From the NCBI RefSeq assembly GCF_000515415.1, contig NZ_KI911783.1:1032501-1096500 (forward strand): 64,000 bases of DNA, read 5' to 3'. The stretch is from Bradyrhizobium sp. WSM1417 (lineage in GTDB: Bacteria; Pseudomonadota; Alphaproteobacteria; Rhizobiales; Xanthobacteraceae). The notes under the pieces were generated by a model that worked only from the letters and a program-made list of their open reading frames with translations, made no database searches and was not told the origin of the DNA. The position numbers were made by a program, and so were the translations under genes. This document shows positions 57,401-60,639 of the stretch, in pieces; positions within the stretch are counted from its first letter, which is position 1, and the number at the start of each line of letters is the position of its first letter.

Positions 57401-57670
57401 TCAGCCGCGCCGGCCCTTGATGGCGGCCCAGATCAGAGCGACCCCGCCCAGCCCCACGACCAGGCCCAGGAACACCAAGGGCGCGACGTCGGAATCGATC
57501 CGGCCTCGGTCGGATATGGAGATTCCGCCGAACAGGAGTGCACAGGCGCCGGGCAGCAGCAGGATGATCCCGAAGATCGCCATGAGCGCGGTCAGGCAAC
57601 CGCTGCGCTTGTTCGGCGGGGCAGGAGGCGGTCCCGGCGGGGCTGGTGAAGGCGTGTCGCTGATGCTCAT
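57401..57670 (-). CDS. Small two-helix membrane protein of the radical SAM/Lgt-like operon
   Basis: 89 residues. A proline-rich cytosolic head (TPSPAPPGPPPAPPN, 7-20), then KRSGC and two hydrophobic helices (about 24-46 and 64-82). Function unknown. Its ATG (57668-57670) overlaps the TGA of the radical SAM gene (ATGA arrangement), so it is translated by coupling and belongs to that operon. The cysteine just before the first helix (SGCLTAL) resembles a lipobox position but there is no signal peptide ahead of it. It may hold the operon's soluble enzyme to the membrane. Confidence 0.75.
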   Translation of the reverse strand: MSISDTPSPAPPGPPPAPPNKRSGCLTALMAIFGIILLLPGACALLFGGISISDRGRIDSDVAPLVFLGLVVGLGGVALIWAAIKGRRG

Positions 57671-59097
57671 GCCTGCAGGGCTCCTTCGGTTGACTGCGCC
57701 GCCAGTTCGGCGCGGATGCCGTCGATCTTTCCGTTCCGGTAGAACAGATTGTAGGTGTCGAACGGGATGATCGCGCCGTTCTCGGTGACGAAATGAATAC
57801 AGCTGCGCTTGACGTTGCCGACGCAAAAATTGAAGCGGTCGAGAAACTGCACGATGGTGACGCGGAATACGTTCTCGTAAGTGATGCCCTGCGGGACCTC
57901 GAAGCTCGGCAGGCAGCACAACAATTCGCAGACGCGCTCGCTCGTGTTCAGCGGTCCCGAGGACAGCGAAAACAGATCGATGAATTTCTCCCTCAGCGCC
58001 GGATGCTTCTCCGGGCTTATCGTATTGGGCAGCAATGCGACGAGCTGCTCCTGCGGGATCAGCGAGGTCAGCGGCAGCACTTTGTCGCCGTTGCGCAGGC
58101 CGTAACCGATCGAGATGCTTTCGGGGTTGCAGGGCAGCGGGATCATGTCCTTGTCGCCGAACACGCCGGTTTCGACCACGCGCTTGCGGATCTCCGACAG
58201 CATGATGCGGTCGGTGTTCTTGTCGAAATTCTCGTTGCGGCCGGCATCCTGCACCGGCTGCAGCGTGACGCCGCGCACGCATTTCCAGGTCAGCGCGTGG
58301 CGAACGATGTCGCCGATCTCGGCATCGTTGACGCCGCGCTTGATGGTCGCGACCAGCGTGGTCGACACGCCGTAATGCTCGAGATTTTCCAGCGCCTGCT
58401 GGCGGATCTTGCGCAAATCCGCGCCGCGCAGATTGATCAAAGCGTCGCGTTCGAGCGAGTCGAACTGGAGATAGACCTCGAGCCCGCGCTTGTTCTCGGC
58501 GAGCCGCGCCACGAACTCCTTTTCGCGGGCGATACGCAGGCCGTTGGTGTTGATCATGACATGGCGGATCGGGCGGGCGCGCACGGCGTCGAGGATCGCG
58601 AAGAAATTTGGATGCAGCGTCGGCTCGCCGCCGGAGATCTGCACGAGGTCAGGCTCGCCCTCGCTCGCGACCAGCGCGTCCAGCATTCGCTCGATCTTGG
58701 CCAGCGGCGTGAAGCTGGTCCGCGCCGGCGAGGAATCGGCAAAGCACACCGGGCAGGTCAGATTGCAATGCTCGGTGATCTCGATCAGCGCCAGGCAGGA
58801 ATGCTGCTCGTGGTCGGGGCACAGGCCGCAATCGTAGGGGCAGCCGAATTCGGTGTGCCGTTGAAAGGCGAGCGGCCGGTCGCCGGGCTTGATGAAATCC
58901 TTGCACAGGCGCCAATAGGCTGCGTCCGTCGACACAAGCGTGGACTGGACGCCATGCTCCTTGCAGCGCTTCTCGTACCAGACCTCGTTGTCGAGGATCT
59001 GGATCTTGGCCGGCACCAGCTTCAGGCAGGTCTCGCAGAGAGATTGGGTCTGGCCCCAGAAAATATAGGGGCGCGACTTACGCAACGGCGCGTTCAT
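57667..59097 (-). CDS. Radical SAM enzyme resembling tetraether synthase (Tes / MJ0619 family)
   Basis: 476 residues. The radical SAM cluster motif is C111-x3-C115-x2-C118 (CNLTCPVCFA), with SGGEPT at about 155-160. Before it stand a rubredoxin-like CETC pair (Cys21, Cys24, also Cys45) and FGCPYDCGLCPDHEQHSC (Cys86, 90, 93, 101), and near the end CELLCC and CVGNVKRSC. This layout, N-terminal metal site plus auxiliary cluster cysteines around GCP-DCGLCP, is the one known from archaeal Tes, which joins lipid chains by C-C bonds. It overlaps the Lgt-like gene upstream by 20 bp and the small membrane gene downstream by 4. A lipid-tail coupling role is inferred, not shown. Confidence 0.82.
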   Translation of the reverse strand: MNAPLRKSRPYIFWGQTQSLCETCLKLVPAKIQILDNEVWYEKRCKEHGVQSTLVSTDAAYWRLCKDFIKPGDRPLAFQRHTEFGCPYDCGLCPDHEQHSCLALIEITEHCNLTCPVCFADSSPARTSFTPLAKIERMLDALVASEGEPDLVQISGGEPTLHPNFFAILDAVRARPIRHVMINTNGLRIAREKEFVARLAENKRGLEVYLQFDSLERDALINLRGADLRKIRQQALENLEHYGVSTTLVATIKRGVNDAEIGDIVRHALTWKCVRGVTLQPVQDAGRNENFDKNTDRIMLSEIRKRVVETGVFGDKDMIPLPCNPESISIGYGLRNGDKVLPLTSLIPQEQLVALLPNTISPEKHPALREKFIDLFSLSSGPLNTSERVCELLCCLPSFEVPQGITYENVFRVTIVQFLDRFNFCVGNVKRSCIHFVTENGAIIPFDTYNLFYRNGKIDGIRAELAAQSTEGALQA

Positions 59098-59794
59098 GCA
59101 TGGGTCTCGCTTTGGGCGCCGTCGCCAGCATGACGACGGCGTAGAGCAGGATGGACAGCGACAGCAGGTGAAACAGCGTGAAGGGGCCGATCAGTGTGCC
59201 GTAGGGTTTGAGGAATTCCCACAGGAAGCGCTGTGCGCCATAGTAGACGAGGACGAGGTAGAACCCATTGGTGATCACAAATGCGCTCCGGTTCAAGACC
59301 GCCAGCACGTAGAGCAGCGCGAATACCCCCATCGCGGCGCTTTCGTAGAGCTGCACGGGATGCCGAAGGATGCCGTCGCCGAAATCATGGCCCCAGGGCC
59401 ATGCCGTCGGCGTGCCGTAGGTGAAATCGTCGAGGCCCGCGAAATAGCAGCCGAGCCGGCCGATCGCGATGCCGAGCGCCAGCGGCAGCGTAAAACGGGC
59501 GCCGGTTCGTACCGTGATCCCTGCGGACCATTTGTAGAGCTCGATCGCCGCGATGCCCCCGGCGAGCGCCCCCTCGACCGAGCGCGCAATGCCGCTCTGG
59601 TCCGACAGCCACAGATTGGCGGAGCCGAACAGATAGGCGCCGAGCCCCGCACCGAAGACCAAAGCGGCAAGGTAGGACCGCTCGAAGGATTGCGCCGGAA
59701 ACCGCAAGCCCTGTCGCGACAGCCAGTACAGCGCCATGGCCGCCGCCAGCCACGCTGCGATGTCGAAGAGAGTGTGGAGGAAAGCCCCGCTCAT
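59078..59794 (-). CDS. Divergent prolipoprotein diacylglyceryl transferase (Lgt)-like membrane enzyme
   Basis: 238 residues with about seven helices. It keeps the Lgt arginine region GRLGCYFAGLDD and RHPVQLYESAAMG, but the canonical signature G-R-x-x-N-F-x-N-x-E is changed (Cys-Tyr-Phe-Ala in place of Asn-Phe-x-Asn). Lgt moves diacylglycerol from phosphatidylglycerol to lipoprotein cysteines; this relative probably handles another acceptor or reaction with the same lipid. ATG 59794 is chosen; a GTG at 59821 is possible, and ribosome binding sites are weak. Overlaps the radical SAM gene by 20 bp, indicating joint function. Confidence 0.82.
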   Translation of the reverse strand: MSGAFLHTLFDIAAWLAAAMALYWLSRQGLRFPAQSFERSYLAALVFGAGLGAYLFGSANLWLSDQSGIARSVEGALAGGIAAIELYKWSAGITVRTGARFTLPLALGIAIGRLGCYFAGLDDFTYGTPTAWPWGHDFGDGILRHPVQLYESAAMGVFALLYVLAVLNRSAFVITNGFYLVLVYYGAQRFLWEFLKPYGTLIGPFTLFHLLSLSILLYAVVMLATAPKARPMHERAVA

Positions 59795-59874: not shown

Positions 59875-60639
59875 CTAGCCGGCTTGCCGCTCTTCGGTCG
59901 GATAGACGCCGCGCAGCACCTCCTCGAAGTGCAACTTCACGGCCTCGTTGCACAGGCAGGCGCGCAGGCGCAGGCCCTCGCGGTTGCGGACCAGGATCGA
60001 TCCGCGGCGCGTGTCGAGCACGCCTTCCGCCTTGAACGACTGGAGCACGCGGCTGGCATAGCTGCGGCCGACGCCGAGCAGCGTTGCGAGCTGTTCGTGG
60101 GTCAGCGGCACGCTGCTCTCGTCGCCGGTCCGCTCCATCGCCGCCAGCATCCATTTGGCGGTGCGCTGCTCGATGGAGTGAATGGCGTTGCAGGCGGTGG
60201 ACTGGAAGATCTGCGCCAGCATGCAGTCGGCGTAGCGAGCGAAGACATGGCGCAACGAGGACGAGCGCTGCTTGGCGGCCTCCAGCTTGCTGACGTGAAT
60301 GCGCGCAAACGGCCCGCCGAATTTCACGCAGATCCGCGTGTAGGCCGGCAGATAACCCTCGCTGACGATGCCGCCCACCGCGCCTTCGCGGCCGACCAGG
60401 ATGGTCTCGACATCACGACCGTCCTCGTTGGGAACGAGGAAGGTTGCAAGCGACGGGCCGCAGGGGAAATGGACGACCTGGACGTCGTCGCCGGGGTTAT
60501 AGAGCAATTCATTCGCCGCGGCGCTTTCGAGCATGACATGCGGTGCAAGCAGGGCGAAGTCGGCCGCGCTCAAGCGCCGCAGCAGATTGTTGGTAGGCCG
60601 GCTATCGATCTCGGTGGCGTTGCTGGTCCGCGCGTCCAT
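59875..60639 (-). CDS. Crp/Fnr-family transcriptional regulator
   Basis: 254 residues. The N-terminal cyclic-nucleotide-binding-like beta barrel (about 20-145: LLYNPGDDVQVVHFPCGPSLATF, GREGAVGG) lacks Fnr-type cysteine clusters and the exact cAMP-binding motif, so the ligand is unknown. The C-terminal HTH is LTHEQLATLLGVGRSYASRVLQSFKAEGVL (short: LATLLGVGRSYASRVL). GGAG is 7 bases before ATG 60639. It lies 80 bp upstream of the Lgt-like/radical SAM operon on the same strand and may control or be cotranscribed with it; the receiver protein is divergent. Confidence 0.87.
   Translation of the reverse strand: MDARTSNATEIDSRPTNNLLRRLSAADFALLAPHVMLESAAANELLYNPGDDVQVVHFPCGPSLATFLVPNEDGRDVETILVGREGAVGGIVSEGYLPAYTRICVKFGGPFARIHVSKLEAAKQRSSSLRHVFARYADCMLAQIFQSTACNAIHSIEQRTAKWMLAAMERTGDESSVPLTHEQLATLLGVGRSYASRVLQSFKAEGVLDTRRGSILVRNREGLRLRACLCNEAVKLHFEEVLRGVYPTEERQAG

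Follow-up and report, generated by a model that had tools for sequence, protein, structure and literature searches.

A set of three overlapping genes in Bradyrhizobium sp. WSM1417, combining a relative of the lipid-tail enzyme Tes, a relative of Lgt and a tiny cysteine-bearing membrane protein, points to an undescribed route to lipid-anchored membrane proteins or modified lipids. The set lies in a stretch of 64,000 nt (contig NZ_KI911783.1, positions 1,032,501 to 1,096,500, of a genome of 8.05 Mb in one contig), called hereafter the window, whose numbering is used throughout. Our tentative reading, to which we give a probability of about 40%, is that of a three-part inner-membrane module made of an Lgt-like enzyme, a small-protein acceptor, and a Tes-like radical SAM enzyme that would act on lipid tails.

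Conservation of the gene pair

The open reading frame (ORF) calls gave three minus-strand genes with overlapping ends, in the following order.

59078..59794, minus strand: Lgt-like integral membrane protein (238 aa, PF01790)
57667..59097, minus strand: Tes-like radical SAM protein (476 aa, PF23545 and PF04055)
57401..57670, minus strand: small two-helix membrane protein, candidate acceptor (89 aa)

The Lgt-like and radical SAM genes overlap by 20 bp, and the radical SAM and small-protein genes by 4 bp (ATGA), as a first-pass annotation of this DNA had stated.

The association of the radical SAM gene with an Lgt-like neighbour, proposed in that annotation, was recovered across genomes. In one scan, 80 named loci were kept out of 221 encoding a relative, and the Lgt-like gene was present in 79; in the 80th (L065), the contig ends 13 bases before the radical SAM gene. 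PF01790 was then searched in 66 genomes picked from the survey lists. All 22 genomes with a member of the clade (at least 52% identity) had a second, low-scoring match adjoining the radical SAM gene. Of the 44 genomes without a clade member, one (G1038) had an additional full-length homologue elsewhere, another (G001) had a weak, partial match, and in G204 PF01790 matched nothing at all. Outside this set, in two small genomes (G567, G398), two small genes separate the Lgt-like gene from a radical SAM gene with 32% identity. Nine of 12 stretches fetched later also had the Lgt-like gene, the remaining three holding relatives from G1038 and G938, 28–31% identical to the protein of a gammaproteobacterial locus (L125).

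The pair is kept in three phyla, and any other neighbour cluster was found in at most 4 of 17 loci (clusters not all annotated). In a tree of 40 rows, 25 pair-bearing rows fell to one side of a branch with support 100/99. Four further pair-bearing rows (L118, L119, L132, L167) were placed elsewhere with weak support, and long branches were flagged, so that one or two origins of the pair are possible. The M. jannaschii Tes placement in this tree is that of two fragments, chosen by likeness to the WSM1417 protein.

Surveys for the radical SAM protein (E 1e-30; family, class and phylum sets overlap) gave 17 of 198 genomes for the family (14 with at least 74% identity), 6 of 385 for the class and 12 of 398 for the phylum. 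The distribution was patchy within the genus, with 6 of 11 same-genus genomes among the matches listed. No Lgt-like gene was found in the loci of two alphaproteobacterial relatives (L112, L113; 37–39% identity), and the TrsS-type loci L114 and L115 had neither an Lgt-like gene nor such a small protein nearby. Ten plasmid records contained a Tes-like gene, with an Lgt-like match adjoining or within 1.3 kb in four of them (Persicobacter (Bacteroidota), M. branderi, M. avium, Nonomuraea). On three other plasmids examined, from Mycolicibacterium vanbaalenii (L130) and two haloarchaea (L131, L168), a methyltransferase gene adjoins the Tes-like gene, which is 29–39% identical to the WSM1417 protein, and there is no Lgt-like gene. 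Haloarchaea are said to make archaeol only (PMC8941075; this and all other PMC-numbered papers are cited from excerpts), so their plasmid-borne Tes-like genes probably have another role.

A conserved cysteine in the small membrane protein

57542..57544, minus strand: Cys43 codon, in the motif PGAC

Cys43 is the sole invariant column of A2, an alignment of 18 small-protein copies picked after the motif had been seen in them; Gly41 is nearly invariant, and mean column identity is 28%. A model made from two copies matched 31 frames no longer than 160 residues at E < 1e-4, and all 31 had a cysteine at this position, within [GS]xC in 22, PGxLC or PAxC in six, and FPMAC in three. The cysteine is thus better conserved than the glycine. 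Bacterial lipoproteins carry the lipobox consensus [LVI][ASTVI][GAS]C after a positively charged start and a hydrophobic stretch. In 26 copies of the small protein, position −2 relative to the cysteine was Gly in 24 and Ser in two, position −1 was L, I, V or T in 19, and position −3 was P or S in 18. The last Lys or Arg preceded the cysteine by 16 to 32 residues, with a median of 21 (25 copies scored, one having no Lys or Arg before it).

Loci were then scanned for frames in which [GS]xC follows a run of 14 hydrophobic, uncharged residues and is followed by no more than 130 further residues; the frame needed an upstream start codon and had to lie on the strand of the pair, no further than 700 bases from it and without falling inside either gene. 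Bradyrhizobium and near loci were positive in 73 of 75 cases, the misses being L064 (contig end) and L069 (FPMAC). For other pair loci the count was 27 of 29; L123 has LSGTC with a Glu within the stretch, and L155 is cut off by a contig end within the Lgt-like gene. In radical SAM loci showing no Lgt-like gene the count was 1/11, namely L065 with its contig end, and in control frames of at least 260 codons from the same loci 2/275. With G.C only, the four sets gave 73/75, 25/29, 1/11 and 0/275. Fisher p for the 29 loci was 8e-7 against unpaired loci and 5e-34 against controls, in related loci from which the rule was partly drawn. Ten pair loci (L152 to L158, L162, L163, L167) were fetched after the idea was set; seven had the G.C form and nine the widened form.

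Most of the lineages seen have the hairpin 3′ of the radical SAM gene. One gammaproteobacterial branch (L125, L152 to L154, L156) has it 5′ of the Lgt-like gene, and in L118, L119 and M. branderi it separates the two genes. No family above the Pfam cut-off was found among eight small proteins, and the WSM1417 genome held no other significant match to its own (next E 1.05). In L075, L077 and L127, tandem, strongly diverged copies of the cysteine-bearing protein follow the radical SAM gene, which suggests fast evolution or several roles.

These counts bear on the possibility that the three genes are neighbours by chance, without joint function, and that the small proteins are common membrane ORFs. 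Operons often have overlapping genes, and the Bradyrhizobium loci share a wider neighbourhood too. Against it stand a pair kept in three phyla while other clusters stop at 4 of 17 loci, and a small protein whose background is two in 275 control frames. Being already contradicted by the 66-genome search and the small-protein scan, chance is very improbable.

A radical SAM protein built like Tes

The Pfam scan of the radical SAM protein found PF23545 as N-terminal domain and PF04055 as core, and nothing beyond this zinc ribbon and radical SAM core. Inspection of the motifs, and of A3, an alignment of 81 radical SAM proteins, gave the following positions.

59026..59037, minus strand: first half of the rubredoxin-like site, Cys21-x2-Cys24 (with Cys45 and His48; Tes site from PMC9433317)
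58819..58842, minus strand: N-terminal auxiliary cluster motif Cys86-x3-Cys90-x2-Cys93 (alignment)
58744..58767, minus strand: radical SAM motif Cys111-x3-Cys115-x2-Cys118 (PF04055 and alignment)
58129..58131, minus strand: Cys323 (Cys in 81/81 rows of A3; the M. jannaschii Tes fragment has Ser)
57913..57918, minus strand: Cys394-Cys395 (Cys in 81/81 rows)
57799..57801, minus strand: Cys433, equivalent of Tes C456 (alignment with the M. jannaschii Tes fragment)
57757..57759, minus strand: Asp447, at the Tes C470 position (D in 81/81 rows)

The sequences CETC, FGCPYDCGLCP and CNLTCPVC are present as first described, and the Tes-type motifs are all there: the rubredoxin CxxC...CxxH, the N-terminal CxxxCxxC plus His, and the radical SAM CxxxCxxC. 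The Tes-like cysteine layout claimed by the first-pass annotation therefore holds for these three motifs, but it breaks down at the late cysteines, where only C456 is retained out of C438, C455, C456 and C470 of the M. jannaschii fragment. At the C470 position, L125, L129, L154, L157 and L158 have E. Cys323, Cys394 and Cys395 could stand in as ligands of a C-terminal cluster. Tes M439 and Y459 are reported as fully conserved among 1000 archaeal sequences (PMC9433317). The WSM1417 protein has V416 at the former position (S in 44, V in 29, L in five and M in three of 81 rows; Met also in L129, L157 and L158) and F436 at the latter (F in 81/81). The M439 change alone says little, because Tes M439A is still active (PMC9433317).

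The proposed kinship with Tes stood in the fold, with a full-length match of 41.4, but not in the Tes family model NF045702, where 261.1 bits were obtained for a cut-off of 450. The best NCBIfam match was TrsS (NF045646), with 299.9 bits, below its cut-off of 490. Neither name was therefore retained as an identity, the M439 and Y459 residues being in addition not kept for Tes. Two other labels were set aside: pterin methylation, carried by the Pfam name and database labels, which the Tes authors could not corroborate for MJ0619 (PMC9433317), and antiviral viperin, for which the PADLOC match covers the radical SAM core only (46 bits). In overall architecture, the radical SAM protein resembles an enzyme that acts on lipid tails.

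The fold also bears on whether the small, fast-evolving and often tandem proteins, likened to a ribosomally made modified peptide, are themselves substrates of the radical SAM enzyme, besides being lipidated by the Lgt-like one. The match to peptide maturases was much weaker (19.0 at most), no further cluster beside the pair was shared by more than 4 of the 17 loci (as counted above), and the cysteine is predicted to lie across the membrane from the radical SAM enzyme. Peptide maturation is accordingly quite improbable.

A different radical change (methylation, desaturation, sulfur insertion or a new C–C branch) of an acyl chain, later attached to the small protein by the Lgt-like enzyme, would fit the rearranged C-terminal region, with C323, C394, C395 and C433 invariant and Asp or Glu for C470. 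It would also fit TrsS, rather than Tes, as top NCBIfam match, and related branches that adjoin methyltransferases and have no Lgt-like gene. The full-length fold match is nevertheless to Tes, and Pfam sees only the zinc ribbon and radical SAM core. We regard such a modification as unlikely.

A divergent Lgt-like protein

59456..59458, minus strand: Arg113 codon, equivalent of E. coli Lgt Arg143 (alignment)
59447..59449, minus strand: Cys116 codon, at the Lgt Asn146 position (Cys in 23/23 Lgt-like proteins compared)

The Lgt-like protein scores 63.2 bits with PF01790 (curated cut-off 24.9; ordinary Lgt of WSM1417, 240.2) and is far under the NCBIfam equivalog cut-offs for Lgt. A search of solved structures gave a chance match only. 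The protein was rightly described as lacking the Asn-Phe-x-Asn signature while retaining RHPVQLYES, since GRLGCYFA replaces GRLGNFIN of E. coli Lgt. Lgt R143 and R239 are kept as R113 and R189, and the positions of Y26, H103 and N146 are occupied by His, Glu and Cys. In the same 23 proteins, H103 is missing throughout and Y26 is mostly replaced by His. All three residues are reported as essential in E. coli Lgt, H103 being not absolutely conserved across Lgt (PMC13251419).

In genome G1038, an Lgt homologue whose Asn146 equivalent is Cys (L169) lies remote from any Tes-like gene; the genome also has two distant Tes-like genes without an Lgt-like neighbour.

Proposed mechanism

Family membership, gene linkage, residue conservation and the placement of a cysteine after a hydrophobic stretch are computed, whereas we infer all of the reactions, their order, the topology and the role of the small protein as acceptor. 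The Lgt-like enzyme would work on the periplasmic side, where the active site of Lgt lies (PMC4728403), and transfer diacylglyceryl or a similar group derived from phosphatidylglycerol. The acceptor would be the conserved cysteine of the small membrane protein from the same operon, predicted to sit in a G-x-C motif at the outer end of a membrane helix. This proposal rests on a cysteine at the lipobox position, probably on Lgt's side of the membrane, and on the conservation of the arginines considered to activate the phosphatidylglycerol donor. As the residue before the cysteine is mostly bulky, signal peptidase II probably leaves the small protein intact, and the product would stay as an uncleaved lipid-bearing membrane protein. 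From the cytosol, the Tes-like enzyme would alter the tails of either the phosphatidylglycerol donor or this product, by coupling them or by another radical modification of an unactivated carbon. In its most specific form, where small hairpins receive diacylglyceryl on G-x-Cys from an N146C Lgt-like enzyme and the Tes-like enzyme couples or remodels the anchor tails, the scheme is doubtful. The final product may be an anchor with coupled tails, an anchor changed in its tails in some other way, or a product made of lipid alone, for which the small protein would be a helper.

Several points weigh against the module. Most late Tes cysteines are replaced, in a region whose cluster is said to form a C–S intermediate in Tes (PMC9433317). 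Diacylglyceryl transfer is not assured, because Y26, H103 and N146 are all changed. Contact between the radical SAM enzyme and the small protein is hypothetical; the enzyme should be cytosolic and the cysteine is probably periplasmic. The small protein departs from the lipobox consensus, G-x-C being non-standard, though the cysteine position fits. Small proteins of the most distant lineages are too divergent to align with one another, and the A2 copies had been picked knowing they carried the motif. Some of the loci used to score the scan rule had also served to frame it, and five of the ten later loci (L152 to L154, L162, L163) are close kin of loci already seen (84–98% for the radical SAM protein).

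The first-pass annotation's interpretation as a whole was partly supported, and its lipid-only form has become a rival. There, the Tes-like enzyme would couple the tails of two phosphatidylglycerols into a membrane-spanning lipid, the Lgt-like enzyme would move or remodel a diacylglyceryl group on a lipid acceptor, and the small proteins would only assemble or stabilise the complex, their cysteine perhaps pairing with Cys116. The fold and metal sites are as in Tes, Tes produced in E. coli holds bacterial phospholipids (PMC9433317), membrane-spanning lipid synthesis has been proposed for bacterial Tes homologues (PMC8941075), and Lgt-like and small proteins each keep a Cys. However, the clade does not conserve M439 (a weak point, given the active M439A) or Y459, three of the four late cysteines are replaced, NF045702 stays below its cut-off, and a scaffold need not have Cys as its best-kept residue. 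We consider this pathway rather unlikely.

Neighbouring genes and variant loci

59875-60639: Crp/Fnr-type gene, upstream of the three-gene set

The Crp/Fnr-family gene was found just upstream, where it had been noted. The nearest named relatives of the locus are Bradyrhizobium (99% identity in three strains), and most Bradyrhizobium loci listed have this gene with the pair. It does not accompany the pair in the Rhodoplanes loci L073, L076 and L078, nor in L072 and L075. Being absent from the Rhodoplanes loci and from the neighbours common to distant lineages, it was rejected as a module part, as were BipA and other neighbours, whose sharing stops at family level.

Two same-class relatives with small genomes (1.2–1.5 Mb; L118:9603-13255, L119:6935-10466) have a variant set: a Tes-like gene, two genes for small membrane proteins, one of which falls just short of the SHOCT cut-off, an Lgt-like gene with GCYFNGCC, and an ICMT/PEMT-type methyltransferase gene. 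We read the small genes and the ICMT/PEMT-type gene as a local variant. In one gammaproteobacterial branch (L125:8835-9653, L155:6470-6904), a gene between the Lgt-like and radical SAM genes has a probable ordinary lipoprotein start (GGTGC), with a Sel1 repeat in L125.

Comparison with known systems

The radical SAM protein is like Tes, or GDGT-MAS (MJ0619; PDB 7tol, 7tom; NF045702), in domain order, rubredoxin-like site, N-terminal cluster motif, radical SAM motif and fold. It differs in that C438, C455 and C470 are replaced, that C323, C394 and C395 are clade-specific, and that it is linked to Lgt-like and small membrane proteins. TrsS, a radical SAM (seleno)protein, is the best NCBIfam match, below its cut-off; L115 passes that cut-off with 569.7 bits, and L114 is its relative. 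The Lgt-like protein differs from Lgt, the phosphatidylglycerol:prolipoprotein diacylglyceryl transferase (PDB 5azb), at N146, H103 and Y26, and an ordinary copy of Lgt is encoded elsewhere in the WSM1417 genome. The second M. smegmatis Lgt homologue, MSMEG_5408, is reported to have Y26H and N146C, as here (PMC13251419). The bacterial membrane-spanning lipid synthase Mss couples fatty acids and would overlap the proposed function, a likeness by description only (PMC11868695). The combination of Tes-like, Lgt-like and small proteins was not found in print among open-licence PubMed Central papers.

The role of bacterial Tes homologues has been an open question since 2022. A part in the synthesis of branched glycerol dialkyl glycerol tetraethers (brGDGT) was proposed, with activity unconfirmed, and their distribution was reported to be a possible indicator of organisms that make membrane-spanning lipids (PMC8941075, PMC11868695). 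If the Bradyrhizobium-type branch is a lipoprotein-like system, counts of presumed producers need correction. If the module exists as proposed, one branch of these homologues would serve physiologically to make a protein anchored to a lipid that spans the membrane or has modified tails. The second Lgt subfamily (His26, Cys146) gains a concrete candidate substrate, and the small operon, found in Bradyrhizobium, which is non-pathogenic and open to genetic manipulation, makes the question directly testable. The parts are relatives of known families, and their combination holds testable, possibly new biology.
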